A DNA stretch of 64,000 nt from Trogon surrucura (Eukaryota > Chordata > Aves > Trogoniformes > Trogonidae). The notes under the pieces were generated by a model. That model ran no database searches, was not told where the DNA came from, and saw nothing but the letters and a program-made list of their open reading frames with translations. The stretch lies in NCBI GenBank assembly GCA_020746105.1, contig JAJGST010000022.1, forward strand, positions 973,223 through 1,037,222, read 5' to 3'. This document shows positions 19,541 to 57,789 of this stretch, piece by piece; the first letter of the stretch is position 1; every line of letters begins with the position of its first letter. A program made the position numbers and the translations under genes.

Positions 19541-20064
19541 GGAAACAAGAAACTTCCTTACCTCTTAGAGCAGCACACCCATAAACTTGGAATCTTGGCA
19601 GAACAAGAGATGCTGATAGAGCTCCAGGTGCCAGAGAGGACGTTCCCGAGTGGGACAGAACACTGGATGATTTTTTGTAAAACAATTTGTCAACTATGTT
19701 TTTCAAGGAGTTCTTCCACAGACTACTTCGTGTGCATGCCATCTGGTAAGCATACTTCTATATGATTAAACACAAGACTAATGATCAAGTAAAATGGAAA
19801 CATTAGAGAGTGTTAGTAAGCCATACATTTTCCTTGACCTACATACACAGTTTGAATAAATTTACACTGTTAGGTGAATAAAAATAAAGGCCACATATAA
19901 ATGTTTTGCTTCTTGCTTTCCCATACATATTCCTTTTATTTTTGGCATTAGGAAGAATCATAGTTGAATTTCAATTTTGCTTTAGAAGTATATAGACTCT
20001 GCTGTTTACCTGCAAAGCAGTAAAAGATTAACCTTACTACCGATGTGCATACTGAACAACAATC
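19541..20064. other. Intronic sequence, nothing recognised
   Basis: About 520 bases between two LTRs. No element or exon signals recognised. Confidence 0.45.
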
Positions 20065-20817: not shown

Positions 20818-22404
20818 ATCAAGTAATCAGCAAGAGAACATGACAAATAAATTACTACATGTATTTCTACTTCACTGGGGGGACAATGCTATATAATGAT
20901 ATAACTATACAAAGTTTTGTTATTGTATAATATAAGCCCCAAACTCCTATGAGACTTGTAATTATACCCTTCACCCTCTTCTCCCCCCTTTTTTCAGTTC
21001 ACATTAAAAAAAGCAAGAAAATCTCCACAAAAAAAAAAAAACTAAACAAAGAAACAAGCAAACCCTAACACCAAACCAAAACACAACCAACTCACTACAT
21101 GTATGTTCATGAGGCTCAGTACAGGAGAAGCAAAAAGCCATTTAGTGCATAGGACTGATGAACTGCATAAGAAGTAATTGTCCTGATCCTTTAGACCCTA
21201 GTTTATAATTAATTATGCATTATAATTAACTAATTTTTTCTTATTATTTCTAGAACATTTATTCATAACTCCTTAAGCACTACAAATTATGCATGCTATA
21301 ATATTTGAATATATTGATATGTAATGCCATATATATTAATGTAGCTTTAAAAAAAAAACCAAAACAAATCGAACCTGAATTAGGTTCTGAGTTTATTTTC
21401 ATTGTTGCTTTTCTTATATAGCACACAGAGCTGAAGGCATTCTCTATGCTTTTAACTGGTATCATCTGAGATGTTAATTTTGTTTTTATTCCAATAGTTA
21501 AACATTTACAACCAAGTTAATATAAAATTATTTTAACACAGATAATTTAGGATTGTAATAGTTCTATCCATTTTTTCCAACATTTTTTTAACCACAGATA
21601 TTAAAAGCATTCATGTTTATGAATTCTTATGTGAATAATTTGACATCGGTTTGAGCAAGTACTCATCAACCTGATTAAGCTGACAACCAATGGACTCATC
21701 ATAATTAACACTGTCATGAATGCTCTTGGGGGAGAAAAAAAAAATAATTATGGGCCAAATCTAGTTAAATTTATACTATAAAGTTTAAAGAGTTTTTCAA
21801 ATATTTGTTCAAATTAGTTTTATGAAAATGTTTTTACCTGAGGCTTCTGCTAGAAGCAAGCCTGGAGGGACAAATGTCAAGAGGCACTCTGCCTGCAGAA
21901 TGAATACATGGCAAGAGCCATCACATTTTTAGTTACAATTTCAACTATTTTTTTGTTGAGGTAAATAATAGCAAAGTCTTTAACCATCCCATTCTAATCT
22001 GAAATGAAGGTACTGGCAGTCCAGGATGAGTAGCTAAGTACTTCTTAACCGCAAAGAATAACTCACAACAGATAATCTTCATAAAAATCAGAGACAAAGG
22101 GGTTCCTATGCAAAAAAAAGAGCTCTGGGGTAAACTATCCCTTACTGTTAACTGTGTACAACTCACACAGCAGCTGAATCAGAGACAGCTGGTTTGGGTG
22201 GTAGTGGAGTGTTGGTTTAAAAATAACCAACCAACCAACCAACTGCAAATTAAATATGTAAAAATCTAGTGATTGAGCTGAGTGTTTTTCCTAGCAATCA
22301 GCTTACTGTGCTTGCCTTGTAGATCCGACCCGATAAGTACATCCAACTGAACTGACCTGCTTGTGCACTAAAGATTACATTTGTGAGTGTACTATCTGCA
22401 TGCA
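20818..22404. other. AT-rich intronic sequence, nothing recognised
   Basis: About 1.6 kb of AT-rich sequence with A-rich low-complexity patches near 21005-21080. It looks single-copy in this window. It continues into the 243-bp segment copied to 56188. Confidence 0.5.
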
Positions 22405-22647
22405 CTATCAATAAATATTGCATACCAATGCGGAAAACACAAATGGGGTGCAGGAAAATACTGGCTAGCTGAGTCAGTCTCTTTCTATCCATGTTAGACA
22501 AATGGTGAAAATAAAAAAGAGGAATCTTCTCAGTCCGTTCGTTGCACTCCTGTTGTCCATCTATCAGGCATAAATCTATTTCTGCTTAACAGCATTCATT
22601 TGAAAGAGCTAGAAGATGATGACAAGGAGATTTTTTTTATTCCTAAC
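22405..22647. other. Single-copy flank that was copied to 56188-56430
   Basis: These 243 bases lie directly at the 3' side of the minus-strand LTR 22648-23688. Their reverse complement reappears at 56188-56430 with the same length and, by eye, only two mismatches. Because it lies outside the target duplication of this LTR (CTAAC at 22643-22647, which is the first 5 bases of the copied piece), it is host DNA and this locus is the donor. Confidence 0.88.
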
Positions 22648-23688
22648 TGTTGTGGTTTGACCCTGGCTGGCAGCCAGGTGCCCACACAGCTGCTCTCTCA
22701 CTCCCCCTTCACTGCTAGACAGGGGGAGAAAATATTTCAAAGGGTTCAGGGTTTGAGATAAGGACAGGGAGATCACTTTCATTTACCGTCCCGGGCAAAA
22801 CAGACTCGATTTTGGGGAAATTAGGTACATTTATTAAGACAACAAATCAGAGAGGAGTAGTGAGAAATAAGAAAAAGCAAACAGATCTTAAAAGAAAAAC
22901 ACCTTCCCCCTATCCCTCCCTTCTTCCTGGGCTTAACATCAATCCCGGTTTCTCCACCTCCTCCCCCCAAGGAGACAAGCTTCACATTCTCTTCTCCAAA
23001 GTGAGTCGTCCTACGAAGGGCAATTCATCACAAACTGCCCAACGTGAGACACCTCACAAGGGGCAGCCCACACCTCGTGAGTCTGAGGCGCAGTCCTTCA
23101 GGGGAAACTGCTCCAGCGTGAGTCCCCTGCAGTGTCACAAAACTCCCACCAGCCAACCTGCTCCAGCGTCGGCATTCACTCTTCCACGGGCTACAGGTTC
23201 CGGCAGCGACCTGCTCTGATGCGGGCTTCCCACGGGCTACAGCCCCTTTCAGGCATCCACCCACATGGCGTGGGGTCCTTTGCCCCACAGTGGACATCTA
23301 CACCTCGCCCATGGGCTGCAGGGGGACAACCCGCTTCACCATGGTCTTCACCACGGCCCGGGGGACTCCTTCTGCTCCGGCGCCTGGAGCTCATCCTCCC
23401 CCTCCTCCTTCTTCACTGACCTTGGTGTCTGTACAGATTCTCACTCCTCCATCTCTGTGCCAGCTGTTATAGCGCAGTTCTTTTCCCCGTTCTTAAATAT
23501 GTTTTTCCCAGAGGCATTCCTCTGCTATCACTTTACTGATAGGCTCAGCCTTGGCCAGCGGTGGGTCCCTCTTTGGAGCCGTCTGGCATTGGCTCTGTCA
23601 AGCTTGGGAAGCTTCTAGCAGCTCCTTGCAGAAGCCACCCTGCAGCTCCCCTCTTGCTGCCAAAATCCGGCCAGGCCAACCCAATACA
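22648..23688 (-). mobile_element. Solo ERV LTR, donor of the 56-kb copy
   Basis: On the minus strand it starts TGTATTGGGTTGGCCTGGCC at 23688 and ends AAACCACAACA at 22648, 1041 bp. A promoter-like AACATATTTAAGAACGG block and an AATAAATGTACC polyadenylation signal are present in that order. Flanks are CTAAC (22643-22647) and CTAAT (23689-23693), a 5-bp target duplication with one mismatch. Its 3' ~320 bases are almost identical to the LTR at 54995-56187 while the rest differs by roughly a tenth. Confidence 0.88.
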
Positions 23689-23693
23689 CTAAT

Positions 23694-29581: not shown

Positions 29582-30638
29582 GTCCCTAATCTGAGCTCCA
29601 GGGAGGCAACAGGCTTCCCTGTGGGCTGGGTCCGGGCGGCAAATGGGACCCTCTGTTCCCCTTAGGATGGAGTCACCAATGACAACTACCCTCCTTTTCT
29701 TTTTAGTTGGACTGGTCCTGATGCATGGGGCTGACTTGCTCAGCGAGGTCAGCCCTATGGCTGCACATTCATTCACCTCTTCACTTCCTTGGCTCTCCTG
29801 TTCCAGAGCCCTGTACCTGTTCTGCAGAGGCAACTGGGCAGGTGAGGGAGGTCGAGCAGGGACCCGCCTACCTCTCCGAGCCAGGACCCGTTTGCATTCT
29901 CCCCCATCTCTTTGGTCCCCTCCTTTGACCTGATGGCCAGAGGGGAGGGGATCCCCTGCTGCATGTGGAGATTGCTGTGTGTGCATCAGGGAGTGGCTCC
30001 ACCAATCTATCTCTCTTTCACACTCCCTGATGCTCCTCAGTCTCTCCACTTTTTCCTTGAGCTCTGCCACAAGGTAGAGAAGGTCGTCCAACTGACCACA
30101 CCTCCCACAGGCACTGTCAGTTGCAACCTCTGAGAGGCACAGGCTCAGGCACTCCCTGTAGCCGGCAGCCTGCACAGCTGCATACCAAGTAGGTCCTTGA
30201 AGAGTTCAAAGTTTGCTCTCCTGAAATCCAGGCTAGTGAGCTTGCTGTGCAACCTCCTACAGATCGTGGTCACTGTAGCCAAGGTTGCCCTTGAGCTTCA
30301 TGTTGCCCACCAGTCCCTCCTTGTTGGTGAGAACATGGTCCAGCACCTTCTCTCATTGGCTCCTCTGCCACTTGAAGGAGGAAATTATTATCAATGCATT
30401 CTAGGAGCCTCCTGGATTTCTGGTGCCCTGCTGTGTTCTTCCTCCAAGAGATATCGGGGTGGCTGAAGTCCCCCATGAGGACCAGGGCTTGTGAACACAA
30501 AGCCATTCCATTCTTTCTATATAGAGCCTTATCCATTTGGCCTTCCTGGTCATGTGGCCTCTAACAGACCACCACTATGAAATCACCTGCACCTGCTTTC
30601 CCTTTAATCCTGACTTGTAAGCTCTCAGTCAGCTCCTG

Positions 30639-33522: not shown

Positions 33523-34588
33523 ATGGTTGCCACCAGGTCAATGGTTGTTAGAAAAACTGTGGGCACCCAGACAGAGGCCCCACGTAAGCATGTGGGTGTT
33601 CAGGCCTCGGGCTGCAGAGAGAGCAGGAGCCTGGCACTGGCCATGGAGGGTAGTGGAAGTGACACTTGTGTGAGATGTGACCAGGTGAGCGATCTGCTTA
33701 GCCTGGTGGCTGAGCTGAAGGAGGAAGTAGAAAGGCTGAGGAGCATTAGGGAGTCAGAGAGAGACAGATCGGTGGAGTCACGTCCTGAATGGCGAGCAGC
33801 AAGCTCCACAAAGAGCTGAATATCCCCCCACCTCTGGCCATCAGGCAAAAGGGGGGGACCTAAAGGATAGGGAGGAGTGGAAGCAGGTGCCTGCCAGGAG
33901 AGGAAGGAAAATCCTTGCCCGGCCTCCCTCACCTGCCCGGTTGCCCCTGCAAAACAGGTGTGGGGCTCTAGACAATGAGAGCCAGGCAAAGGAAGAGTCA
34001 GTGGAGGGTTCACCCATAGGGCTGTCTAGGGTGAGTCACTCGGATACACGCATTAGGACTTCTTCATCTAAGAAAAAAAGGAGGGTAATTGTAATTGGAG
34101 ACTCCCTCTTGAGGGGAACAGAGGGCCTTGTCTGCCGCCCTGATCCGACCCACAGGGAAGTCTGCTGCCTCCCTGGGGCCCGAGTTAAGGATGTTAGCAA
34201 GAAGCTTCCTGGTCTGGTCAAACCCACGGACTATTACCCGCTTTTGGTTATGCAGATCAGTAATGATGAGATAGTAGAGAGATGGCCAGAAGCAATCAAA
34301 AGGGACTTTAGTGCACTGGGGCGGATGCTAGAAGGATCAGGCGCACAGGTTGTGTTTGCCTCTATTCCTTCAATTATGAGGAAAAATAGTGGTAGGTTTG
34401 ACAAAGTGCAGCAGATTAATACTTGGCTAAAGGGGTGGTGCCAGCGGTCTAGCTTTGGATTTTTTAACCATGGGGAGATCTACAGGGCACCTGATCTACT
34501 GAAACAAGCTGGGGTTCAAATGACACAAAGGGAAAAAAGGATCCTTGGTCACGAGCTGGTGGGACTCATAGAGCGTTCTTTAAACTAG
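33523..34588 (+). pseudogene. CR1 ORF1 (zinc/coiled-coil and SGNH esterase-like), one frameshift
   Basis: Starts at ATG 33523 (VATRSMVVRKTV). The N-terminal part has a short C-x2-C unit (TCVRCDQVSDL) and a coiled coil (LSLVAELKEEVERLRSIRES). A 2-base loss near 33763-33770 relative to the copy at 63319 ends the first frame at 33819. The second frame (33887-34588) carries the esterase-like domain: VIVIGDSLLRG (nucleophile block), SNDEI, SGAQVVFASIP, INTWLKGWC, ending LVGLIERSLN. The family's ORF1 is thought to bind the element RNA and aid transposition; the esterase role is known only in outline. The ORF2 ATG follows two bases after the stop. Confidence 0.85.
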
Positions 34589-34590
34589 AT

Positions 34591-37423
34591 ATGAAGGGGG
34601 ATGGGGTTATAGCTGGGATTGCAGCGGGGCAGTGCTCTAGAAATTATGAGGACCGGGTGGCCTTCCGTCCCCCTAGGGTGAGATCAGTGTGCTCAGCTTG
34701 CTCCCTAAAATGCTTATACACCAATGCACGCAGCATGGGGAATAAGCAGGAGGAGCTAGAAACCTGGGTTCGGGCAGGAGATTATGATCTGGTGGCAATT
34801 ACAGAGACATGGTGGGACAGCTCACATGACTGGAATGTGGTCATGGGTGGCTATGTCCTTTTCAGGAAAGACAGGCCAGCCAGGCGAGGTGGTGGAGTCG
34901 CTCTTTACGTGAAAGAGCAACTACAATGTCTTGAATACCATCCAGGCATGGATGAGGAGCAAGTTGAGAGTGTATGGGTTAGAATTAAGGGGCAGGCTGG
35001 CAGGAGAGATACTGTTGTGGGTGTCTATTACAGGCCACCAGATCAGGGTGAGGAAGTTGATGAGGCCTTCTACAGGCAGCTGAGAGCGGTCTCACAATCA
35101 CAGGCCCTGGTTGTTGTGGGGGATTTTAACTTCCCTGATATTTGCTGGAAGGACAACTCAGCCAGCCAGCCACAGTCCAGGAGGTTCCTCCAGTGCATCG
35201 ATGATAATTTTCTGATGCAAATGGTGGAGGAGCCAACTAGGAGAGGAGCACTGCTGGACCTCATCCTCGCTAACAAGGAGGATCTGGTTGAAGCAGTAAA
35301 GGTTGAGGGCTGCCTTGGCTGCAGTGACCATGAAATGGTGGAGTTCAGGATCTCATGTAGCAGAAACAAAATAGCAAGCAGAATTGCAACCCTGGACTTT
35401 GCCAAGGCAAACTTTGGCTTTTTCAAACAGTTACTCGAGAAAATCCCATGGGCAAGGTTGTTTGAAGGTAAAGGGGCCCAAGATAGTTGGTTAGCGTTCA
35501 GGGACTGCTTCTACCGTGCTCAAGATCAGAGCATCCCGACACGTAGGAAGTCAAGGAAGGGAGCCAGGAGACCTGCGTGGCTAAACAGGGATCTGCTGGG
35601 TAAGCTCAAGTGCAAGAGGAGAATTTACAGATCTTGGAAGGCAGGGCTGGCCACTTGGGAAGAATATAAGGCTGTTGTCTGAGGATGTAGGGAGGCAACT
35701 AGGAAAGCAAAGGCCTCCCTAGAATTGAACCTGGCGAGAGGGGTCAAGGACAACAGGAAGAGCTTTTTCAAATACGTGGCAGATAAAACTACCACCAGAG
35801 GCAATGTAGGCCCACTGATGAATGAGGTGGGTGCCTTGGTGACAGAAGATACAGAGAAGGCAGAGTTACTGAATGCCTGAGGCCCCAGAGGAAGTCAGGG
35901 CAGTGAAGGAGTTTGCTTTAGCCGATGAGGACTGGGTTAGGGACCAATTAAGCAATCTGGACATCCATAAATCCATGGGTCCAGATGGGATGCACCCACG
36001 GGTGCTGAGGGAGCTGGCTGATGTCATTGCTAGACCACTCTCCATCATCTTTGCCAAGTCTTGGGAGACGGGAGAGGTGCCTGAGGACTGGAGGGAAGCA
36101 AATGTCACTCCAGTCTTCAGAAAGGGCAAGAAGGAGGACCCGGGTAACTATAGACCGGTCAGCCTCACCTCCATCCCTGGGAAAGTGATGGAACGACTTA
36201 TCCTTGGTGCCATCTCAAGGCATATCAAGGATAAGAGGGTCATTAGAGACAGTCAACAGGGCTTCACCAAGGGGAAGTCGTGCTTGACTAACCTCATAGC
36301 CTTTTACGAGGATATAACAAGGTGGATAGATGATGGCAGAGCGGTGGATGTGGTCTACCTTGACTTCAGTAAAGCATTTGACACAGTCTCCCACAGCATC
36401 CTTGCTGCTAAACTGAGGAAGTGTGGTCTAGACTCTCGGGTAGTGAGGTGGACTGTGAACTGGCTAAGGGGAAGAAGCCAAAGAGTTTTGGTCAATGGGG
36501 CGGAGTCTGGTTGGAGGCCTGTATCCAGTGGAGTCCCTCAAGGGTCGGTACTGGGACCAGTATTATTCAATATATTCATCAATGATTTGGATGAGGGACT
36601 AGAGAGTACTGTCAGCAAGTTTGCTGATGACACCAAGCTGGGTGGAGTGGCTGACACACCAGAAGGCTGTGCTGCCATTCAGCGAGACCTGGACAGGCTG
36701 GAGAGTTGGTCGGGGAAAAATTTAATGAAATATAACAAGGGTGAGTGTAGAGTCTTGCATCTGGGTAGGAACAACCCCAGGTTCCAGTATAAGTTGGGGA
36801 ATGACTTATTAGAGAGTAGTGTAGGGGAAAGGGACCTGGGAGTCTTGGTGGACAGCAGGATGACCATGAGCCAGCACTGTGCCCTTGTGGCCAGGAAGGC
36901 CAATGGCATCCTGGGGTGTATTAGAAGGGGGGTGGTTAGTAGGTCAAGAGAGGTTCTCCTTCCCCTCTACTCTGCCCTAGTGAGACCCCATCTGGAATAT
37001 TGTGTCCAGTTCTGGGCCCCTCAGTTCAAGAAAGAGAGGGAACTGATGGAGAGAGTCCAGCACAGGGCAACTAGGATGATTAAGGGAGTGGAGCATCTCC
37101 CTTATGAGAAAAGACTGAGGGAGCTGGGGCTCTTTAGTTTGGAGAAGAGGAGGCTGAGGGGTGACCTCATTAATGTTTACAAATATATCAAGGGTGAGTG
37201 TCAAGAGGATGGAGCCAGGCTCTTCTCGGTGACAACCACTGATAGGACAAGGGGTAATGGGCTGAAACTGGAACATAAGAGGTTCCGCTTAAACTCGAGA
37301 AGAAACTTCTTCTCAGTGAGGGTGACGGAGCCCTGGAACAGGCTGCCCAGAGAGGTTGTGGAGTCTCCTTCTCTGGAGACATTCAAGACCTGCCTGGACA
37401 CGTTCCTGTGTAGCATAATCTAG
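34591..37423 (+). pseudogene. CR1 ORF2 with nonsense codon and 53-bp deletion (copy D)
   Basis: The endonuclease is open for 363 codons ([44 protein letters not shown]). It ends at a TGA (35680-35682) where copy B has CGA, a change expected from CpG decay. Near 35877, 53 bases are missing compared with copy B (between GAATGCC and TGAGGCC). The RT is then open for 516 codons (35873-37423) with [42 protein letters not shown] and the full C terminus. Both lesions are also present in the minus-strand segment at 41615-44226. Confidence 0.92.
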
Positions 37424-37504
37424 GCATTCCTGCTCTGGCAGGGGGATTGGACTTGATGATCTTTCGAGGTCCCTTCCAATCCCTAACATTCTATGATTCT
37501 ATGA

Positions 37505-39919: not shown

Positions 39920-40049
39920 TGTATTGGGTTTGTGTAGCAAGGTTTTGGTAGCAGGGGGACTACAGGGGTGGCTTCTGTGAGAAGCTGCTAGACATTTCCC
40001 CCATGCCCAATAGAGCCAATGTCAGCCAGCTCCAAGACAGACAGACCAC
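39920..40049 (+). mobile_element. 5' end of an ERV LTR (15976 family)
   Basis: TGTATTGGGTTTGTGTAGCA through GTGAGAAGCTGCTAGACATT and CCAATGTCAGCCAGCTCC: the first ~130 bases of the LTR family seen at 15976, 22648 and 54995. Truncated at about 40049. Confidence 0.82.
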
Positions 40050-41614: not shown

Positions 41615-44226
41615 TCGCTGAGAAGAAGTTTCTTCTCGAGTTTAAGCGGAACCTCTTATGTTCCAGTTTCAGCCCATTACCCCTTGTCCTATCAGTGGTT
41701 GTCACCGAGAAGAGCCTGGCTCCATCCTCCTGACACTCACCCTTGATATATTTGTAAACATTAATGAGGTCACCCCTCAATCTCCTCCAAACTAAAGAGC
41801 CCCAGTTCCATCAAGTCTTTTCTCATAAGGGAGATGCTCCACTCCCTTAATCATCCTAGTTGCCCTGTGCTGGACTCTCTCCAGCACTTCCCTGTCTTTC
41901 TTGAACTGAGGGGCCCAGAACTGGACACAATATTCCAGATGGGGTCTCACTAGGGCAGAGTAGAGGGGAAGGAGAACCTCTCTTGACCTACCAGCCACCC
42001 CCCTTCTAATACACCCCAGGATGCCATTGGCCTTCTTGGCCACAAGGGCACAGTGCTGGCTCATGGGCATCCTGCCGTCCACCAAGACTCCCAGGTCCCT
42101 TTCCCCTACACTGATCTCTAATAAGTCATTCCCCAACTTATACTGGAACCTGGGGTTGTTCCTACCCAGATGCAAAACTCTACACTCACCCTTGTTATAT
42201 TTCATTAAATTTTTCCCCGCTCAACTCTCCAGCCTGTCTAGGTCTCGCTGAATGGCAGCACAGCCTTCTGGTGTGTCAGCCACTCCTCCCAGCTTGGTGT
42301 CATCAGCAAACTTGCTGATAGTACTCTCTAGTCCCTCATCCAAGTCATCGATGAATATATTGAATAATACTGGTCCCAGTACCGACCCTTGAGGGACTCC
42401 ACTGGATACAGGCCTCCAACCAGACTCCGCCCCATTGACCACGACTCTTTGGCTTCTTCCCCTTAGCCAGTTCACAGTCCACCTCACTACCCGAGAGTCT
42501 AGACCACACTTCCTCAGTTTAGCAGCAAGGATGCTGTGGGAGACTGTGTCAAATGCTTTACTGAAGTCAAGGTAGACCACATCCACCGCTCTGCCATCAT
42601 CCATCCACCTTGTTATATCCTCGTAAAAGGCTATGAGGTTAGTCAAGCACGACTTCCCCTTGGTGAAGCCCTGTTGACTGTCTCTAATGACCCTCTTATC
42701 CTTGATATGCCTTGAGATGGCACCAAGGATAAGTCGTTCCATCACTTTCCCAGGGATGGAGGTGAGGCTGACCGGTCTATAGTTACCCGGGTCCTCCTTC
42801 TTGCCCTTTTTGAAGACTGGAGTGACATTTGCTTCCCTCCAGTCCTCAGGCACCTCTCCCGTCTCCCAAGACTTGGCAAAGATGATGGAGAGTGGTCTAG
42901 CAATGACATCAGCCAGCTCCCTCAGCACCCGTGGATGCATCCCATCTGGACCCATGGATTTATGGATGTCCAGATTGCTTAATTGGTCCCTAACCCAGTC
43001 CTCATCGGCTAAAGCAAACTCCTCCACTGCCCTGACTTCCTCTGGGGCCTCAGGCATTCAGTAACTCTGCCTTCTCTGTATCTTCTGTCACCAAGGCACC
43101 CACCTCATTCATCAGTGGGCCTACATTGCCTCTGGTGGTAGTTTTATCTGCCACGTATTTGAAAAAGCTCTTCCTGTTGTCCTTGACCCCTCTTGCCAGG
43201 TTCAATTCTAGGGAGGCCTTTGCTTTCCTAGTTGCCTCCCTACATCCTCAGACAACAGCCTTATATTCTTCCCAAGTGGCCAGCCCTGCCTTCCAAGATC
43301 TGTAAATTCTCCTCTTGCACTTGAGCTTACCCAGCAGATCCCTGTTGAGCCACGCAGGTCTCCTGGCTCCCTTCCTTGACTTCCTACATGGCGGGATGCT
43401 CTGATCTTGAGCACGGTAGAAGCAGTCCCTGAACGCTAACCAACTATCTTGGGCCCCTTTACCTTCAAACAACCTTGCCCATGGGATTTTCTCGAGTAAC
43501 TGTTTGAAAAAGCCCAAGTTTGCCTTGGCAAAGTCCAGGGTTGCAATTCTGCTTGCTATTTTGTTTCTGCTACATGAGATCCTGAACTCCACCATTTCAT
43601 GGTCACTGCAGCCAAGGCAGCCCTCAACCTTTACTGCTTCAACCAGATCCTCCTTGTTAGCGAGGATGAGGTCCAGCAGTGCTCCTCTCCTAGTTGGCTC
43701 CTCCACCATTTGCATCAGAAAATTATCATCGATGCACTGGAGGAACCTCCTGGACTGTGGCTGGCTGGCTGAGTTGTCCTTCCAGCAAATATCAGGGAAG
43801 TTAAAATCCCCCACAACAACCAGGGCCTGTGATTGTGAGATCACTCTCAGCTGCCTGTAGAAGGCCTCATCAACTTCCTCACCCTGATCTGGTGGCCTGT
43901 AATAGACACCCACAACAGTATCTCTCCTGCCAGCCTGCCCCTTAATTCTAACCCATACACTCTCAACTTGCTCCTCATCCATACCTGGATGGTATTCAAG
44001 ACATTGTAGTTGCTCTTTCACGTAAAGAGCGACTCCACCACCTCGCCTGGCTGGCCTGTCTTTCCTGAAAAGGACATAGCCACCCATGACCACATTCCAG
44101 TCATGTGAGCTGTCCCACCATGTCTCTGTAATTGCCACCAGATCATAATCTCCTGCCCGAACCCAGGTTTCTAGCTCCTCCTGCTTATTCCCCATGCTGC
44201 GTGCATTGGTGTATAAGCATTTCAGG
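41615..44226 (-). other. D-type CR1 block inside the L-type CR1
   Basis: Upstream of the L-type tail the sequence changes between 41606 and 41626 from L-type (CCAGTGCTCTGTCACCCTC) to D-type (GAGAAGAAGTTTCTTCTCGA) at the homologous position and in frame. It then follows copy D back to the endonuclease start ([14 protein letters not shown]), including D's TGA (43248-43250) and D's 53-bp deletion (near 43055). At 44226-44232 it meets L-type RT sequence (RPVSLTS) across a shared CTCCCT. Scattered differences from D show it is not a perfect copy (for example, K keeps the common AGGGAAGTGCTGGAG where D has a change). Confidence 0.88.
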
Positions 44227-45542
44227 GAGGTGAGGCTGACCGGTCTGTAGTTACCCGGGTCCTCCTTCCTGCCCTTCTTATAGACTGGAGTGACATTCGC
44301 TTTCCTCCAGTCTTCAGGCACCTCTCCTGTTACCCACGACTTACCAAAGATGATGGAGAGTGGCCTAGCAATGACTCCCGCCAGCTCCCTCAGCACCCAT
44401 GGGTGCATCCCATCAGGGCCCATGGATTTATGGATGTTTAAATGTTCAAATTGATCCTTAACACAGTCCTCATCAATCAGGGCAAACTCCTCTTTTATCC
44501 TGACTTCCTCTGGGGTCTCAGGGTACTGAGGCTCCTGAGGACAGTCTCCAACAGTGTAGACAGAGGCAAAGAAGGCATTCAGCAACTCTGCCTTCTTTCT
44601 GTCCTCTGTCTCCAGGGCACCCACCTCATTCACCACAGGGCCCACATTGCCTCTAGTGTTAGTTTTGTCGGCAATGTATTTGAAGAAGCCCTTTCTGTTG
44701 TCCTTGACCTCCCTTGCAAGGTTGAATTCCAAGGAGGCCTTAGCTTTTCTAATTGCCTCCCTACACTCCCTGACAGCTGCCCTGTACTCCACCCAAGTGG
44801 CCAGCCCCTCCTTCCACAATTTATATACCCTCCCCTTCCACCTGAGTCTGCCCAGCAGATCCCTGGTTAACCATGCAGGTCTCCTGGATCTCTTTATTGA
44901 TTTCCTACCTGATGGGATGCACTGATCCTGAGCCTGGAAGAAGTGGTCCTTGAATGCCAACCAACTCTCTTGGGCCCCTTTACCTTTCAGCTCCCTGTCC
45001 CAAGGGGTTTCCCCTAGCAATTGCTTGAAGAGGCCAAAGTTGGCCCTTCTGAAGTCCAGAGTTGTGATCCTGCTTGGTATTCTGTTTTTACCGCACAAGA
45101 TCCTGAACTCCACTATCTCATGGTCGCTGCAGCCAAGATTACCCTCAACCTTCACTGCTTCAACCAGACCTTCCTTGTTGGTGAACACAAGGTCCAGTAG
45201 CGCTCCTCTCCTGGTTGGCTCATCCACCATTTGCATCAAAAAGTTATCATCGATGCACTGTAGGAACCCCCTGGATTGAGGATGGCTGGCTGTGTGGGCC
45301 TTCCAGCAAACATCTGGGTAGTTGAAATCCCCCATGAGAACCAGGGCCTGGGATTGAGAGGCTGCTGTCAGCTGCCTGTAAAAGGCCTCATCAGCTTCCT
45401 TCTCCTGATCAGGTGGTCTGTAATAGACACCCACCACAGTATCACCCATGCTAGCCTGCCCCTTCATTCTCACCCACAAACTCTCTACTTGCTCCTCATC
45501 TGCCCCTGGATGGATCTCAATACACTCCAGTTGCTCACTCAC
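43248..45542 (-). pseudogene. Chimeric CR1 ORF2 frame with two endonuclease domains
   Basis: One open frame of 764 codons. Residues 1-~170 are an L-type endonuclease lacking its first ~80 residues (GDFNYPDVCW, LGCSDHEIVEF); ~170-440 are the L-type linker and start of RT ([27 protein letters not shown]). Then, with no frame break, a complete D-type endonuclease begins ([47 protein letters not shown]) and the frame ends at the D-type TGA after EEYKAVV. The catalytic FADD box is not in this frame. The frame is a by-product of the mosaic structure; there is no sign that it is a selected fusion gene. Confidence 0.85.
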
Positions 45543-45859
45543 GTAAAGAGCAACTCCCCCACCTCACCTTGTTGGCCTGTCTTTCCTAAAAAGAACAGAG
45601 CCATCAAGGCCCACATTCCAGTTATGTGAGCTGTCCCACCACGTCTCTGTAATTGCAATGAGATCATAGTTCTCCAGCTGCACATAGACTTCTAATTCTC
45701 CCTGCTTATTCCCCATGCTTCTTGCATTGGTATACAGACACTTAAGAGATTTAATGGAGCATCTCTTACCATTGCTTGTGCCTTTTACACCTAACCCTGG
45801 GATACTTCCCCCTGGCTCATGTGTAGTGCGTCAGGTTTTATCCCCTTCCTCCTTCCAAC

Positions 45860-46564
45860 CTAGTTTAAAGCCCTATCTATTAATCCCGCCAACTCTCCAG
45901 CAAGTATTCTCCTCCCTCTCTGAGACAGCTCTACAGAATCTATATCTCTCATACCCGGTAAATCATAAACTTCCCTGTAATCATAATACCCAAAACATTG
46001 CTGGTGGCACCAGTCTTTGAGCCATGCATTAACTGCATGTACTTTTCTGTTCCTTTCACTATTCCTGTCACCTACTGAAGGGATAGATGAGAAAACTACC
46101 TGTGCCCCTGATCCTTTGATCACCTGGCCTAGTGACTTAAAAGTCCTTTTTAATTCTCTTTTTACTTCTATGACTGATCTCATCACTGCCAGCCTGGACA
46201 ACCAACAATGGGTAATAATCAGTGGGACTCACCAGACTGGGAAGTTTTTTAGTCATGTCCCTAATCCGAGCTCCAGGGAGGCAACAGGCTTCCCTGTGGG
46301 CTGGGTCTGGGTGGCAAATGGGACCCTCTGTTCCCCTTAGGATGGAGTCACCAATGACAACTACCCTCCTTTTCTTTTTAGTTGGACTGGTCCTGATGCA
46401 TGGGGCTGACTTACTCAGCGAAGTCAACCCTATGGCTGCACATTCATTCACCTCTTCACTTCCTTGGCTCTCCTGTTCCAGAGCCCTGTACCTGTTCTGC
46501 AGAGGCAACTGGGCAGGTGAGGGAGGCCGGGCAGGGACCCGCCTACCTCTCCGAGCCAGGACCC
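45860..46564 (-). pseudogene. CR1 ORF1 C-terminal part (L-type), frameshifted
   Basis: SGNH esterase-like domain in two overlapping frames: upstream frame with RRVVVIGDSILRG and DYYPLLVVQAGSDEI, downstream frame with SGAQVVFSSIPSV and VNAWLKDWC, ending LAGLIDRALN. The frame changes near 46150. At 46564 the sequence is cut by the LTR insertion (ACCC duplicated). Confidence 0.85.
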
Positions 46565-46910
46565 TGAAGCCGTGGAAGAACCGTAGTTTTAATTGGTATG
46601 TAAAAGACTCAATATGCTGGGGCAAACAGAATCAGTGGGACAGTGGGACAATGGAGGTGTGAGATAAAGTATTCCACAAGGGGAGCTTTTCCCGGAACCT
46701 TTTCCTCAAGGACAGGATGCCCTTATCTTCAAAGATAGAACGAGATATGCAGAACCAGCCTAGGAGTTAACTGAATGGAGCTCATCAACAGGACACCTCG
46801 ATGAGGACTACAATGACGACCACCTGATGACCACCGAAAGACTATTATGCATGCAGGAGTGGGCGGCAACATGTTAATGAGTTCTCCGAAGTTGCATGAA
46901 TATGTATGTC

Positions 46911-47353
46911 TGTGGATACCCTACATTTTAGTTAGCTGTGCTGGCAGCACTGCGTTGCAGAGTTAAGACTTTCGTCCTTGAGCTCTTTCCTAAACAAGTG
47001 CATAACTCTTGCTTCCTAATTATGAAAAGAGACCCTGACCAGCCAAGTACAGCTCATGTTGAGAGCTTGCCCGTGAGAATGAACAGATAAGGTGCTTCTT
47101 GTACACCAGATGCGCATGGGAGTGAACGGGAGAGTATGATCAAAACAGACCTGGGAAAATCTGTTTTCCCTGTGTGATAACAGAGTGATTGAAGGAATAC
47201 ATGAGCTAATAACAACCCTGGCTGTATAGTCTGATCTCTTGTTTGTAACCCAAAAATAGTGCTTCGTGCTAGTAGGTATAAATACGTGTGCCTGCTTGCA
47301 ATAAAGTGAATTCCGTTTTCCACCATCTCGGAGTTCGTGCGTGCTTCTCAACA
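46911..47353 (+). repeat. 5' LTR of the provirus
   Basis: TGTGGATACC...CTTCTCAACA, 443 bp. TATAAATA at 47277-47284 and AATAAA at 47300-47305 put the transcription start and R region at the far 3' side, so R/U5 is short. Confidence 0.93.
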
Positions 47354-47355
47354 AA

Positions 47356-47374
47356 TGGCAGCCCGAATCGGGAC
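47356..47374 (+). promoter_or_regulatory. Primer-binding site, lysine-tRNA-like
   Basis: TGGCAGCCCGAATCGGGAC starts two bases after the 5' LTR. It resembles the lysine-type sites of betaretroviruses and lentiviruses (TGGCGCCCGAACAGGGAC) with a few changes; the exact tRNA is inference. Confidence 0.7.
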
Positions 47375-47490
47375 TTCATCATATCCAAGAGAAGTACCCC
47401 CCAGTGAGCCGAACGGGGTGATGAATTAACTGACGCGTCCATCCTCGCCCTTCAGGAAACAGGTACGAGGACCGCGGCCGGGGGACAAAA

Positions 47491-49038
47491 ATGGGGCAAA
47501 ACGCAACACGATCGCAACAACTTCATCATGATGTACTGATGTGCATTGCAAAGGAACGCGGTTATAAGATTAGCTCACAGAAAGTGACTCTGTTACTTTT
47601 ATGGATTGGTCGTAATTGCCCCTGGTATCCTGAAACAGGATCTTATGAAATTAAGGATTGGAAACGTGTAGGCGAAGAGCTAACTAAAGCACAACATGCT
47701 GGTCATGACAGTTCGCCTGATAATATAGAGACATGGAAAGCGTTGTTTGCGGCGTTGCGCTCACTGAAACCACGCGCTGCTGATGCTAGTTCTGAGAGCA
47801 GCGTGGCGAGCACTGCGGGCTCTGTTGCTACAGACCTCACTAATGATTTAATTGACTTAGCACCTATGCGGCAGACAGAGACTGCAAGTCAAACGAATTG
47901 TGTAAACCTTTTGTCTTCTCAAACTGAAACGGCGGTACAGACTAGCCAGATTAATCTCACAAGTTTGCAAGAAGGATTGATGAGTGGCTATGAGGGAATT
48001 GCGCTGAGAACTGGGGATCCGGAGGAGGACGACAGTTCCTTTGATGTTGGTCCTGACGACCCCGAGACAGAACCCAACCTTTATCCTCCGCTCACGCCGA
48101 ATAGAGCCATGGTGGCATCTGCACCTACTGCTCAGGACGTTTTTTCGGGACTTTCGAAAAAGGGAAAGGGACTGTCAAAATCTGGCTCGCAGCTGTGTCA
48201 AAATAAGGGTCAGATGAACTCTCTTATTCCACTCAATTATCAACCCCCACCCTATGCACCCCCTCCCTTATCTTCTCCACAGGTTTGTCCAGCACCGTCT
48301 TCTATTACTAGGGTTCAGATTTCCCTGACGGATATTTTAACTGATCGTGATGAGCATGGTTCCCTTAACACTGACTTTTTTCCTGAGGTAGTTAAAGCTA
48401 TGCCAGTAGTCATGCATACGTGGCCGGATGGGACTCAGGCACCAGACCGTCAACAGATTTCTTATAGCATGTTGAAAGAGTTGCGGCGTACAGTTGCTGA
48501 ATCGGGTATTCAATCATCCTATGCTGAAAATTTAATAGAGACAATGAAAGAGGCTTTTCTTATGGTTCCTCATGATTGGAAGGTGATATTTAAGTTGATT
48601 TTAACACCCAGCCAATATACCATTTGGTATGTAGAATACAGGGAATTATGTATGTCCCGTACTACAGTAGCTCAAAATAATAATGCTCCAATTAACCCGG
48701 ATCAACTGTTGGGGGAGGGTCAGTTTGCGAATCCACAGCTTCAAGCTCATCTTACTACAGAACTTTTACAGCTCGCTGCTCAATTAGCAACAAAAGCTTT
48801 TAAAAAGATTCCTGACATGAAAAAATCAAGCAAACCTTTTGGCACTATCAGACAAGCTAACCATGAACCCTACCTTCAATTTATTGATAAATTACAAGGA
48901 GCTATCGAAAGACAGGTAGATGTACCAGCGGCAGCAGATGCATTATTACTGCAGCTTGCTGTGGAGAATGCTAACGCGGACTGTAAAAGAATTCTGGAGA
49001 TGCTGAGATCCACTAACAAAACAGCTACTGTTCTGTAA
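47491..49038 (+). CDS. gag: Gag, truncated before nucleocapsid
   Basis: 515 codons open. MGQNAT at the start fits N-myristoylation. The matrix region (about residues 1-100) contains GRNCPWYPETGSY. A PPPYAPPP late-domain motif lies at about 250-257. The capsid (about 275-500) includes WPDGTQAPD and a major homology region at about 454-475 (QANHEPYLQFIDKLQGAIER). The frame ends with ...STNKTATVL, within a few codons of where RNase H sequence begins, so the deletion removed all zinc knuckles. Known role: virion assembly at the membrane. Capsid and matrix order match betaretroviral Gag; without nucleocapsid it could not package RNA normally. Not restored or joined here. Confidence 0.9.
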   Translation: MGQNATRSQQLHHDVLMCIAKERGYKISSQKVTLLLLWIGRNCPWYPETGSYEIKDWKRVGEELTKAQHAGHDSSPDNIETWKALFAALRSLKPRAADASSESSVASTAGSVATDLTNDLIDLAPMRQTETASQTNCVNLLSSQTETAVQTSQINLTSLQEGLMSGYEGIALRTGDPEEDDSSFDVGPDDPETEPNLYPPLTPNRAMVASAPTAQDVFSGLSKKGKGLSKSGSQLCQNKGQMNSLIPLNYQPPPYAPPPLSSPQVCPAPSSITRVQISLTDILTDRDEHGSLNTDFFPEVVKAMPVVMHTWPDGTQAPDRQQISYSMLKELRRTVAESGIQSSYAENLIETMKEAFLMVPHDWKVIFKLILTPSQYTIWYVEYRELCMSRTTVAQNNNAPINPDQLLGEGQFANPQLQAHLTTELLQLAAQLATKAFKKIPDMKKSSKPFGTIRQANHEPYLQFIDKLQGAIERQVDVPAAADALLLQLAVENANADCKRILEMLRSTNKTATVL

Positions 49039-49039
49039 A

Positions 49040-50140
49040 TATTGTTGCTGATTCACATTATGTGTATGGCCTTTTGTGTAGAATTGTGTTTGCCTTTTTA
49101 AAACATGTTTCTAATCGTGTTCTTTTTATGTTGTTTCAGAAATTATGCTTACTTTGTAGTAATCGGATACACCAATACTTTGTGACACATATTCGTTCTC
49201 ATTCTAATCTGCCTGGCCCGTTAGTCGAAGGTAATGCTCGGGCTGATTCTTTGGCTGCTATGGCTGCTGTTCCTGATGTATTAGGACAGGCTAGACTTTC
49301 GCATGGTTTTTATCATCAAAATAGCAAGGCTTTATCCAAACAGTTTAACATAACATCTCGACAAGCTCAAGATGTTATTTTGTCATGTCCAGATTGTCAA
49401 GCGATCATGCCACTGAACTCTAATATAACAGCAGTCCCTCGTGGTCTTGCTCCCAATGACGTATGGCAAATGGATGTTACACATATAGTTGAATTTGGTA
49501 AACTGAAATATGTGCATGTTACTGTAGATACCTTCTCATCTTTTATTGTTGCCACAGCGCACAGTGGTGAAAAGTTTAGAGATGTTCGACTGCATTTGCT
49601 ACGTGCTATTGCCACATTAGGAGTGCCATCACAGATAAAACGGATAATGGTCCAGCTTATGTTTCTAACAATTTTAAAGTATTTTTACAGGAATGGGGAA
49701 TATCTCATGGGATGGGGATACCTTATTCACCAACGGGACAGAGCATTGTGGAAAGAGCACATCTCACGCTGAAAAGAATGTTACAGAAACAGAAAAGCAC
49801 TGTTGTCGGAATGTCTCCACATGAGAAGTTGTCTAATGCAACGTATGTGTTAAATTTTCTGAATATATCCAGTTTTGATATGTTAACTCCTCATCTGAGA
49901 TCTCAGAAAGAAAAACAGAAAGACTTGCCAAAGCCTAATGTACTGTATAAGGACATTCATACTAATGAATGGAAAGGTCCGGTACCTCTGTTGACGTGGG
50001 GAAGAGGTTACGGCTGTGTTTCTTTATCCACAGGACCTTATTGGCTGCCAGTGAAACGAATTAAGCCGTTTAATGACCATGATTTGGTTCCTATCCCGCA
50101 TGATGTGGCTGTGCAGCATCCTGTTACTTCAGTAGCGTAG
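49040..50140 (+). pseudogene. pol: pol remnant: end of RNase H plus integrase, one frame break
   Basis: First frame (49040-49770): RNase H end (ADSHYVYG; GNARADSLA) and integrase N terminus with zinc-binding His and Cys residues (HGFYHQNSKAL; SCPDCQ at about 49386-49400) and the first catalytic Asp (WQMDVTH, about 49466-49486). A single-base loss in an A run near 49637 shifts the frame before the second catalytic Asp; the rest, including the catalytic Glu (SIVERAH) and the GPY/F-type C-terminal block (LLTWGRGYGC, YWLPVKRI), continues in the other frame to a stop at 50138-50140. Protease and nearly all reverse transcriptase are absent. Betaretroviral type judged from the integrase tail. Confidence 0.88.
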
Positions 50141-50942
50141 CAGCAACACGACCGTGCACTGGGCCTGCCTGTTGAATCCCTTTGTTTCGCCCAGTGACAT
50201 GATGGGACTCTGAGGTACCGATTACCAACGATGACATGGATTGGACTGGGAGAAGATGGTTACGGCTGATGGCAGAGCAATTATGGGAAGATGTAACTGT
50301 TTTCAATGTTACCCGTTGTTCTGATATGTATTCTCCTTGTGTGACTAACAATGAAGCTTATATTGGTTGTATAAGACTGTCTAATCAAAACCACATAATA
50401 GGTGTTAAGGTTTATGGTACTAACCAGCAGAGTGATCTTTCTTTAGCTAAAAGCAAGACGGGGAAACTAGCTGCCTTTTGCTTTGTTAGAAGTGTGTGAT
50501 TAAGGATCAAATTGATAGGGAGACTCCCTTGCATTCTTCCTTCAGCCCTGGCCAAGCTGTGAGAAGAATTCAACGGAGCAAATAACACCAGATGTTCCCG
50601 CACTCAATGTTATGTAAGGTTGTTTATTTAATAGTATAAATGCTGGACCCTCTTGCAGCGACTTCAGAAACCTCACCTACGAGTGGACGCACTGCGTAGG
50701 ATTTCCCAATTGTCGGGAGGGTTCTCCAGAAACGTCGCTGCAACAGGGGCTCCCCAGCACTGCGGGTCTGGATGATTTAGGGATTTGTGTTTAATAGAAT
50801 TTGTTGTTGTGGGAAGTGTTTTGTTTTGTTCTTTATCATTATAGTCAACGATCTCACCTGAAGTGCTGCCCAAGGGGTCCGAAGAACTGAAAAATACATC
50901 TTATGACTTTGATGGTGATCCAAAAAACAAAAAAGGGGGAAT
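50141..50942 (+). other. Provirus 3' region: env mostly deleted, polypurine tract
   Basis: A frame at 50236-50499 (87 codons; MDWTGRRWLRLMAEQLWEDV then VTNNEAYIGCIRLS) may be a leftover env leader or surface fragment, but I cannot confirm it. No transmembrane anchor or fusion-peptide-like stretch is seen in the remaining ~440 bases. The polypurine tract AAAAAAGGGGGA (50929-50940) ends two bases before the 3' LTR. Confidence 0.65.
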
Positions 50943-51385
50943 TGTGGATACCCTACATTTTAGTTAGCTGTGCTGGCAGCACTGCGTTGCAGAGTTAAGA
51001 CTTTCGTCCTTGAGCTCTTTCCTAAACAAGTGCATAACTCTTGCTTCCTAATTATGAAAAGAGACCCTGACCAGCCAAGTACAGCTCATGTTGAGAGCTT
51101 GCCCGTGAGAATGAACAGATAAGGTGCTTCTTGTACACCAGATGCGCATGGGAGTGAACGGGAGAGTATGATCAAAACAGACCTGGGAAAATCTGTTTTC
51201 CCTGTGTGATAACAGAGTGATTGAAGGAATACATGAGCTAATAACAACCCTGGCTGTATAGTCTGATCTCTTGTTTGTAACCCAAAAATAGTGCTTCGTG
51301 CTAGTAGGTATAAATACGTGTGCCTGCTTGCAATAAAGTGAATTCCGTTTTCCACCATCTCGGAGTTCGTGCGTGCTTCTCAACA
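50943..51385 (+). repeat. 3' LTR of the provirus
   Basis: 443 bp, identical by eye to the 5' LTR; TATAAATA at 51309-51316 and AATAAA at 51332-51337. Confidence 0.93.
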
Positions 51386-51542
51386 TATGTCTAAACTGTA
51401 TAAAAGCTGTACGTTTGGCCTTTCTCGGGGCACACACTAGACGGAGCTATCCTCTGTGTGTCCTGCGCAGCAATAAAGAATACCTGCTTAATAGACATCA
51501 GGGCTATTAAGTTCTGATTTCAGCTTTTCACGGCATCAACCC

Positions 51543-52098
51543 GTTTCCATTCCCCCCCATCTCTTTGGTCCCCTCCTTTGACCTGATAGCCAGAGGGGTA
51601 GGGATTCCCTGTTGCATGTGGAGATGGCTGTGTGTGCATCAGGGAGTGGCTCCACCAATCTATCTCTCTTTCACACTCCCTGATGCTCCTCAGCCTCTCC
51701 ACTTCTTCTTTTAGCTCTACCACAAGATGGAGGAGATCATCCAACTGACCGCACCTCACACAGGCACTGTCAGTTGCAGCCTCTGGGAGGCACAGGCTCA
51801 GGCACTCCCTGCAGCTGGCAGCCTGCACAGCTGCATCCTTGTGCTGGAGCACTGTTTGGGTCCCCACACTCCTTCTCGTGGTGGCTTTCTGTCTGGTGGC
51901 AACTATGATGGGAAAAAAAGAAGAAAAAAAAAGGAAAAGAAAATGACACCCCCCCAAAAAAAAAAAAAAAAAAGACCAATAACCACTCCTTTCACCTCTT
52001 CTGCCCAGGGTCTGCAATCCTCGCCCTCCCTGAGCCACCAGTAACACCCCCCTGTGCCCGCGGATCACCAGCGTCCGACAGGTCCTCCCCTCCCCCAC
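51543..52098 (-). pseudogene. CR1 ORF1 N-terminal part (L-type), start codon changed
   Basis: Encodes VATRQKATTRRSVGTQT, a C-x2-C unit (CVRCGQLDD) and the coiled coil (LVVELKEEVERLRSIRE), then ends at the LTR insertion. The position of the usual ATG (MVATR in D and M) reads ATA (near 51910), and an upstream ATG at 52098 is in frame. Whether that ATG was used, or the start was simply lost, cannot be told from the sequence. Confidence 0.82.
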
Positions 52099-53930: not shown

Positions 53931-54994
53931 CACAGAATCACAGAACATTAGGGGCTGGAAGTGACCTCAAAAGATCATCTAGTCCAGCCCCCCTGCCAGA
54001 GCAGGATCACCTACAGCAGGTCACACAGGAAGGCGTCCAGGCGGGTTTTGAATGTCTCCAGAGAAGGAGATTGCACAACCTCCCTGGGCAGCCTGTGCCA
54101 GTGCTCTGTCACCCTCACAGGGAAAAAGTTTTTCCTAATGGTTTTGTGGAACCTCCTATGTTCCAGCTTGAACCCATTGCCCCTTGTCCTGTCATTGGAC
54201 ATTGCTGAAAAGAGCCTGGCTTCGTCCTCCTGACACTCCCTCTTGATATATTTATAAACATAAATGAGGTCACCCCTCAGCCTCCTCTTCTCCAAGCTAA
54301 AGAGATCCAGCTCCTTCAGCCTTTCCTCATAAAGGAGATGTTCCACTCCCTTCATCCCGTTCTACTCCCTGTGGCTCTGCGCTGGACTCTCTCAAGCAGT
54401 TCCCTGTCTCTCTTGAGCTGAGGGGCCCAGGACTGGACACAATATTCCAGATGCGGCCTCACCAGGGCAGAGCAGAGGGGCAGGAGGACCTCTTTCGACC
54501 TACTTGCTACTCCCCTTCTAACACACCCCAGGATGCCATTGGCCTTCTTGCTGAAATCCAGACAGACCACACCCACTGCACGGCCACCATCCATCCACCT
54601 GGTTATGTCTGCAGAAAAGGGTCTCAGGTTGGTCAAACATGACTTCCCCTTGGCAAAGCCATGCTGACTGCTCCTAATAACCTTCTTATCCTTGATATGC
54701 CCAGAGACAGCGCCGGGGATAAACTGTTCCATCACCTTTCCAGGGATGGAGGTGAGGCTGACCAGTCTGTAGTTACCTGGGTCCTTCTTCTTGCCCTTTT
54801 TGAAGACTGGAGTGACATTCGCTTTCCTCCAGTCTTCAGGCACCTCACCTGTTACCCACGACTTACCAAAGATGATGGAGAGTGGCCTAGCAATGACTCC
54901 CGCCAGCTCCCTCAGCACCCGTGGGTGCATCCCATCAGGGCCCATGGATTTATGAATGTTTAAGTGTTCAAACTGATCCTTAACCCAGTCCTCC

Positions 54995-56494
54995 TGTATT
55001 GGGTTGGTCTGGCCAGATTTTAGCGGCAGGGGGGGAGCTGCAGGGTGGCTTCTTCAAGAAGCTGCTAGAAGCTCCCCGAGTTTGATAGAACCAATGCCAG
55101 CCAGCTCCAAAGAGGGACCCGCCGCTGGCCAAGGCTGAGCCTATCAGTAAAGTGATAGGAGAGGAACGCCCCTGTGAAAAACATATTTAAGAACAGGGAC
55201 AAAGAACTGCACCTTAACAGCTGGCAGAGAGATGGAGGAGTGAGAATCTGTGCAGACACCAAGGTCAGTGAAGAAGGAGGGGGAGGAGGATGAGCTCCAG
55301 GCACCAGATCAGAAAGAGTCTCCCCGGGTCCGTGGTGAAGACCACGGTGAAGCAGGTTGTCCCACTGCAGCCCATGGGCAAGGTGCAGATGTCCACCGTG
55401 AGGATCACCGCGTAGATGTCCACCGTGTAGAGGATTCCATGCCGTGTGGGTGGATGCCTGAAGGGGACTGTAGCCCGTGGGAAGCCCGCATCAGAGCAAG
55501 TCACTGCCGGAACCTGTAGCCCGTGGAAGAGAGAAATGCCCACGCTGGAGCAGGTTGGCTGGTGGGACTTTTGGGACGCTGCTGGGGACTCACGCTGGAG
55601 CAGTTTCCCCTGAAGGACTGCACCTCAGACTCACGAGGGGTGGGCTGCCCCTCGTGAGGTGTCTCACGTCGGGCAGTTTGTGATGAATTGCCCTTCGTGA
55701 GACGACTCACGCGGAAAAGAGAGCATGAAGCTTGTCTCCCGTGAGAGGGACCCCACAATGGCCTGGGGAAGAGTGAAGAATCCTCCTCCAGAGTGAAGAA
55801 GCAGTAGTGGAACTGACGTTGGATGAACTGACTGTAACCCCCATTCCCTGTCCCCCTGCGCCGCTCGGGAGGAGGAGGTGGAGAAACCGGGATTGATGTT
55901 AAGCCCAGGAAGAAGGGAGGGATAGGGGGAAGGTGTTTTTCTTTTAAGATCTGTTTGCTTTTTCTTATTTCTCACTACTCCTCTCTGATTTGTTGTCTCA
56001 ATAAATGTAATTAATTTCCCCAAAATCGAGTCTGTTTTGCCCGGGACGGTAAATGAAAGTGATCTCCCTGTCCTTATCTCAAACCCTGAACCCTTGGAAA
56101 TATTTTCTCCCCCTTTCTAGCAATGAAGGGGGAGTGAGAGAGCAGCTGTGTGGGCACCTGGCTGCCAGCCAGGGTCAAACCACAACAGTTAGGAATACAA
56201 AAAATCTCCTTGTCATCATCTTCTAGCTCTTTCAAATGAATGCTGTTAAGCAGAAATAGATTTATGCCTGATAGATGGACAACAGGAGTGCAACGAACGG
56301 ACTGAGAAGATTCCTCTTTTTTATTTTCACCATTTGTCTAACATGGATAGAAAGAGATTGACTCAGCTAGCCAGTATTTTCCTGCACCCCATTTGTGTTT
56401 TCCGCATTGGTATGCAATATTTATTGATAGTGAAGGGGGAGTGAGAGAGCGGCTGTGTGGGTTCATTGCTGCCGGCCAGTGTCAAACCATGACA
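54995..56494 (+). mobile_element. Composite LTR insertion carrying host DNA
   Basis: A full LTR (54995-56187, TGTATTGGGTTGG...CCACAACA), then 243 bases copied from 22405-22647, then the last ~64 bases of an LTR again (56431-56494, AAGGGGGAGTGAGAGAGCGG...CCATGACA). The whole unit is bounded by CCTCC (54990-54994; 56495-56499) and interrupts CR1 codons that are adjacent in the copy at 44470. The terminal LTR piece differs from the full LTR by several bases, so it is not a duplicate of it. Confidence 0.9.
56188..56430 (+). other. Host-derived 243 bp inside the LTR insertion
   Basis: Reverse complement of 22405-22647 with two mismatches by eye (near 56197 and 56297). It joins the LTR tail at 56430/56431, where GATAGTGAAG in the insertion overlaps the LTR's own TGAAGGGGG and the donor's GATAGTG, giving 2-3 bases of microhomology. 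Confidence 0.9.
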
Positions 56495-57789
56495 CCTCCT
56501 CAACCAGGGCAAACTCCTCCTTTATCCTGACTTCCTCTGGGGCCTCAGGGGACTGAGGCTCCTGAGGACAGTCTCCAACAGTGTAGACAGAGGCAAAGAA
56601 GGCATTCAGCAACTCTGCCTTCTTTCTGTCCTCTGTCTCCAGGACACCCATCTCATTCACCAGAGGGCCTACATTGCCTCTAGTGTTAGTTTTGTCAGCA
56701 ATGTATTTGAAGAAGCCCTTTCTGTTGTCCTTGACCTCCCTTGCAAGGTTGAATTCCAAGGAGGCCTTAGCTTTTCTAATTGCCTCCCTACATTCTCTGA
56801 CCACAGTCCTATACTCCACCCAAGTGGCCAGCCCTTCCTTCCACAATTTATATACCCTCCCCTTCCACCTGAGTCTGCCCAGCAGATCCCTGGTTAACCA
56901 TGTAGGTCTCCTGGATCTCTTTATTGATTTCCTACCTGATGGGATGCACTGATCCTGAGCCTGGAAGAAGTGGTCCTTGAATGCCAACCAACTCTCTTGG
57001 GCCCCTTTACCTTCCAGTTCCCTGTCCCAAGGGGTTTCCCCCAGCAATTGCTTGAAGAGGCCAAAGTTGGCCCTGCTGAAGTCCAGGGTTGCGATCCTGC
57101 TTGGGATTCTGTTTTTACTGCACAGGATCCTGAACTCCACCATCTCATGGTCGCTGCAGCCAAGGCTGCATCCTCAGCCTTCACTGCTTCAACCAGACCT
57201 TCCTTGTTGATGAACACAAGGTCCAGCAGCACTCCTCTCCTGGTCAGCTCATTCACCGTTTGTATCAAGAAGTTATCATCGATGCACTGGAGGAACCCCC
57301 TGGACTGAGGATGGCTGGCTGTGTGGGACTTCCAGCAAATATCTGGGGAGTTGAAATCACCCATGAGAACCAGGGCCTGGGATTGAGAGGCTGCTGTCAG
57401 CTGCCTGTAAAAGGCCTCATCAGCTTCCTTCTCCTGATCAGGTGGTCTGTAGTAGACACCCACCACAGTATCACCCATGCTAGCCTGCCCCTTCATTCTC
57501 ACCCACAAACTCTCTACTTGCTCCTCATCTGCCCCTGGACAGATCTCGATACATTCCAGTTGCTCTCTCATGTAAATTTCTATGTAGTGGGTCAGTTTTC
57601 TTTATGTTTTTTGTCTGGGGGAAGACATCTGAGAGAACTAGGATATGTCAAATACTAACATGACTAATATCCCTTTCTTCTGAAACCTTTTCTCCAATCT
57701 ATGTTTGTTCAACATTAAATTTCACTGAAGAGATCCAAAACATTTAATACTCCAAATTGTTTACTTGAGATGAGAATTTATGTAATTTG

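Follow-up and report, generated by a model that had tools for sequence, protein, structure and literature searches.

A solo LTR of Trogon surrucura holding a patch of a neighbouring LTR and its host flank, probably copied in by ectopic break repair

The locus described here raises the question of how a solo LTR came to hold 245 bp of host DNA that also lies beside a second LTR of the same family, about 33 kb distant. Both LTRs, called A (donor) and B (recipient) below, are located in a window of 64 kb, the whole stretch of DNA that was analysed; the labels CR1, LTR, U5 and R are those which we take to apply to the elements. The first-pass annotation had listed B as an LTR insertion carrying host DNA and had offered two routes, retroviral transduction and ectopic repair. 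The block structure of B was read from a self-comparison of the window and from a base-level alignment of B with the donor region in reverse complement.

Solo LTR B occupies positions 54995–56494 and is embedded in a CR1. It opens with TGTATTGGGT at 54995, and a first LTR end (...CCACAACA) is reached within it at 56187. Exact-edge comparison on the forward strand placed a perfect target-site duplication around the whole mosaic, with CCTCC as left copy at 54990–54994 and as right copy at 56495–56499. The arrangement reported earlier (an LTR, inserted bases and a terminal LTR piece inside one perfect duplication in a CR1) was thereby confirmed. A CR1 at 44226–45547 (forward strand) runs uninterrupted across the insertion point and differs from the host CR1 in 68 of 1322 columns; by its alignment it is the empty-site paralogue of the insertion site of B.

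Several other repeats were observed in the window. A CR1 stretch of 2.1 kb at 4434–9096 has a second direct copy 2520 bp further on, 98.7% identical to it, which is likely to have arisen by tandem duplication in place, and 34577–37504 is an inverted copy about 96% identical to 6961–9941. An insert of about 5 kb (46565–51538) splits a CR1 and has ACCC at both edges, possibly the 4-base target duplication of a further mobile element. One CR1 pair about 17–22 kb apart (29583–30182 versus 46256–46564 and 51539–51836) is 84–100% alike per 50-base bin, whereas similarity in the bins to the left of 29062 is 54–90%. This could mark another local conversion tract, or a mosaic of subfamilies.

Donor LTR A lies on the reverse strand at 22648–23688. 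Its duplication (22643–22647 and 23689–23693) is imperfect, ATTAG and GTTAG agreeing at four of five bases, and the chance of at least four is about 1.6%. Both A and B have the TG...CA ends, the target duplication and the absence of internal sequence of solo LTRs. The donor flank, at 22403–22647 on the reverse strand, was delimited by the self-comparison and the base-level alignment. None of its 231 15-mers was found outside the two copies within the 64-kb window. On the flank side of A, the 10 frames scanned of the 15 listed gave no Pfam match at E values up to 1, and no sequence resembling a primer-binding site was seen by eye 3' of the LTR; Rfam gave no matches in the window at gathering thresholds. 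A reading of the 245 bp as internal sequence of an endogenous retrovirus was rejected on the lack of domains in these 10 of 15 frames, the lack of a primer-binding-site-like sequence by eye and the four-of-five duplication of A. The first-pass annotation had called the flank host DNA because it lies outside a 5-bp duplication. That duplication proved imperfect. The host origin stands, given the same lack of a Pfam domain in the 10 of 15 frames and of a primer-binding-site-like sequence, and the four-of-five duplication that was copied along in B.

Alignment of the donor region with the region of B, suggested earlier as a check, confirmed A as the donor and extended the copied tract to 562 bp (55871–56432). 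In reverse orientation, the tract is 98.6% identical to the end of the LTR of A plus 245 bp of its flank, the two copies differing at 8 of 562 sites. It spans the last 317 bp of the LTR of A (55871–56187, forward strand, 6/317 sites different), the junction of LTR and host DNA, and the flank (56188–56432, forward strand), which begins with the GTTAG of A and differs at 2 of 245 sites from the reverse complement of 22403–22647. The inserted bases had been given as 243 bp equal, with two mismatches, to the reverse complement of the DNA beside the solo LTR at 22648–23688; origin and mismatches were upheld, with a length of 245 bp. What had been overlooked is that the near-identity to A does not begin at the LTR end: it already starts at 55871, within the LTR and 317 bp before that end. 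Left of the tract, the own part of B (54995–55870, forward strand) differs from A in 69 of 716 aligned columns (to 55760), and the terminal part of 62 bp (56433–56494, forward strand) differs at 9 of 62. LTR B is a B-A-B mosaic, in which about 251 bp of its own LTR (counted on A) were replaced and 562 bp now stand in their place.

The step in identity is abrupt. When one change point was fitted to the LTR by itself, it fell at 55871, with a log-likelihood gain of 12.7 that was reached by none of 2000 permutations; its 2-unit support interval is wide (55726–55895) and contains a gap of 124 bp discussed below. Within the LTR, divergence from A is 9.6% before the step and 1.9% after it (Fisher p 1.6e-6). 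Between the LTR portion of the tract and its flank portion, divergence does not differ (p 0.48); these comparisons split the tract 319/243, the exact edges giving 317/245. Such an abrupt step towards a named donor inside the LTR, with the recipient's own sequence on either side (69/716 and 9/62), is as expected for ectopic LTR gene conversion.

The end of the LTR of A and the GTTAG both lie inside the middle block, which points to A as integrated, or to an RNA from it, as the most likely template. Copying most likely ran from A to B, because the flank is unbroken in A, continuing beyond 22403, and interrupted in B, where it ends at AGTG and LTR sequence follows, and because A is bounded by ATTAG and GTTAG. 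The opposite direction was judged unlikely: the duplication of A would then be a coincidence, and the flank stops at LTR sequence in B and continues in A.

The left edge of the tract falls beside a deletion in the donor. In a three-way alignment, about 124 bp of LTR at 55740–55863 (forward strand) are missing from A. The segment ends a few bases before the copied tract begins; within A, the deletion point is at 22965–22971. The third sequence is another LTR of the family, C (18719–19559, forward strand), which is 70–75% alike and served as outgroup. Since B has the segment and C has most of it, the bases were most likely lost by A. A heteroduplex unable to cross so large a heterology would leave a tract edge beside the deletion. 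A template-switching polymerase would have no special reason to stop there, unless the deletion came later, and the coincidence of edges means little if the deletion is younger than the patch. LTR C itself appears fragmented over 15976–19559, with CR1-like sequence at about 16260–17142 between its first two pieces, and at 39920–40035 the match to the A/B/C family is limited to its initial 116 bp, ending inside the LTR.

At the right edge, comparison of the exit sequences (TTGATAGTG in the flank of A, AGCAGTGAAGG in the LTR of A and TTGATAGTGAAGG in B) showed four bases, AGTG, common to the flank and the LTR of A and placed at 56429–56432 of the forward strand. The converted copy inside B reads AATG at the corresponding place, and outgroup C agrees with the AATG form at the deciding site. 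The lost LTR sequence of B may therefore have read AATG, which leaves two shared bases, or four if it read AGTG. Among 20,000 random pairings, at least four shared bases occurred in 2.1% and at least two in 17%. This uncertainty leaves the odds of the main models unchanged, as both make use of the microhomology. Copying for 245 bp past the LTR end of A and an exit with two to four shared bases fit the pattern of non-canonical termination of homologous recombination, for which one-sided invasion is a related name.

Sequence divergence was examined for the timing of these events. The 8 differences in 562 sites of the tract correspond to about 0.7% per lineage; of the six in its LTR part, C agrees with B at three, with A at one and with neither at two. 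The host CR1 carries 34 private changes in 1322 columns (2.6%), against 32 in its paralogue at 44226 and two unpolarised, so that the age of the insertion of B is at most about 2.6% per lineage. In the left block, 11 CpG losses were counted in B, 11 in A and 12 common to both, and none of the seven CpGs of the tract has changed. Polarisation of the left-block differences with C and a fragment D (block to 55871) placed 24 changes on the side of B and 27 on that of A, with 20 left undecided. These counts suit an older B that was patched recently, but they are weak as a clock: the share of B in the LTR differences exceeds the cap set by the host CR1, so part of its divergence predates insertion, and B may be little older than the patch.

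The mosaic and its edges, the few bases shared where the tract ends, and a target duplication that is still intact are observed; from them we infer a break, a repair pathway and an order of events. It is fairly likely that the patch in B represents a break repaired from A, about 33 kb away. A and B would both have been resident as solo LTRs when a break arose within the last third of B. The left end of B would have invaded A through LTR homology, with the heteroduplex stopped at the 124-bp deletion of A, producing a left edge near 55871. Copying would then have passed the LTR end and the target duplication of A into 245 bp of host DNA. As the second end would have had no homology there, the new strand would have been joined to the LTR remnant of B within AGTG by microhomology end joining, with about 251 bp of the LTR of B lost. 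LTR B is thus probably a resident LTR that was patched later, rather than an insertion arriving with host DNA. The headline of the first-pass annotation holds for host DNA from about 33 kb away, but its arrival together with the LTR is improbable. Of the two routes offered there, repair is favoured in a corrected form, in which 317 bp of donor LTR were copied and about 251 bp of recipient LTR replaced.

Repair is favoured because it accounts in one event for the mosaic, for entry by homology and exit by microhomology, for the roughly 251 bp lost, for the closeness of the donor and for an edge that falls at the heterology. In a genome that we take to be about 1 Gb, the chance of a donor so close would be of the order of 1e-4 under free integration, an argument biased by the fact that the donors visible in the first pass were those inside the window. 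The even CpG losses in the left part and their absence from the tract, as if both LTRs had long been resident before the patch, add weakly to it. Repair is weakened by an exit microhomology of perhaps only two bases, by the wide support interval of the step and by the difference of about 10% between A and B, which would hinder strand invasion. For pure DNA repair, the distance of 33 kb is a further point against: as outlined in PMC11226609, 19 of 34 unique-donor conversions in flies had donors more than 10 kb away or on another arm, a class (>10 kb) read there as enriched for RNA-level events.

The rival that survives best is retroviral transduction, which we regard as unlikely. Read-through RNA of A would have been packaged together with a B-type genome, and reverse transcriptase would have switched templates: minus-strand strong-stop synthesis would have copied the U5 end of B, switched in AGTG to the flank of A, continued through the U5 and part of the R of A and returned to B. 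The provirus formed would carry the patched U5 in both LTRs and would then collapse to a solo LTR; no second patched LTR was found in the 64-kb window. Both tract edges lie downstream of a TATA-like motif at 55184 and thus possibly in R-U5, and the whole mosaic sits inside one perfect target duplication, as the repair model predicts likewise. Oncogene capture is said in PMC515179 to rely on chimeric retroviral-host transcripts, but is also termed extremely rare there. Transduction would moreover require that transcription pass the AATAAA at 56000, that templates be switched twice, once at the deletion of A, and that a solo LTR then form; it would also require a chance integration within 33 kb of the donor, and co-packaging of RNAs about 10% different. 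That a retrovirus-like element took 245 bp of host DNA into its U5, when strong-stop synthesis switched to a read-through RNA from a solo LTR nearby, is rather improbable; if true, it would have yielded an LTR variant that places host sequence at either end of each provirus formed later.

Quite doubtful is conversion at the RNA level, in which transcription through A would have supplied a cDNA that then filled a break in the resident B. The donor falls in the fly class beyond 10 kb that is read as RNA-enriched (PMC11226609), and templated patches with microhomology are reported for humans in PMC5110952; against this, the tract ends at AGTG without a poly(A) run and its donor lies within the same 64 kb. 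A false join of two loci in the assembly is very improbable, for although the window is rich in near-identical CR1 copies, the two copies of the tract are not identical (8 of 562 sites), neither the LTR ends nor the target duplication show damage, the overlap at the exit is at most four bases, and the window contains no runs of N.

If repair from A is the correct reading, solo LTRs can spread adjoining host DNA with no transposition involved, and an LTR flanked by a target duplication need not have arrived with all of its present contents. Conversion tracts that end inside a repeat make donor and ending hard to read. Here the overrun carries the integration junction of A as a tag, by which the donor, the likely direction, the entry region, the exit and the loss can be read at or near the level of single bases.

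Both halves of the repair reading, LTR gene conversion and recombination endings of this kind, have been published. LTR conversion as such is ordinary, as potential converted regions are reported for 25% of LTR pairs in plants in PMC7251063. On the human Y chromosome, LTR-to-LTR conversion leaves ‘a complex patchwork’ and intra-chromosomal events are the commoner ones (PMC4921805). The case described here is similar in that one LTR was overwritten by another, within a chromosome as favoured there, and a patchwork was left; it differs in the overrun of 245 bp past the LTR end, whereas the maximum tracts outlined for the human Y measure 14 to 450 bp and have LTR donors. Among the matches listed, titles and abstract openings contained no natural LTR conversion overrunning into the host flank of its donor, and absence there is no proof.

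With retroviral transduction as sketched in PMC515179, the locus shares host DNA from downstream of an LTR that now lies inside an LTR-bounded unit, but this DNA is found within a single LTR near its donor and not within a provirus. Templated sequence insertions of class 2, as presented in PMC5110952, are likewise patches from elsewhere with an intact donor and microhomology at the junction; unlike in these, one edge in B lies inside aligned LTR homology and is not an end-joining junction. In mouse ES cells, non-canonical termination of homologous recombination combines homologous entry with microhomology exit, according to PMC5104497. The patch in B resembles it in the homologous entry, in copying that goes past homology and in a second end joined by microhomology. 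The mouse events followed induced breaks, used sister chromatids and left kilobase tracts, whereas LTR B holds a natural relic, a short tract between LTRs that are 10% different.
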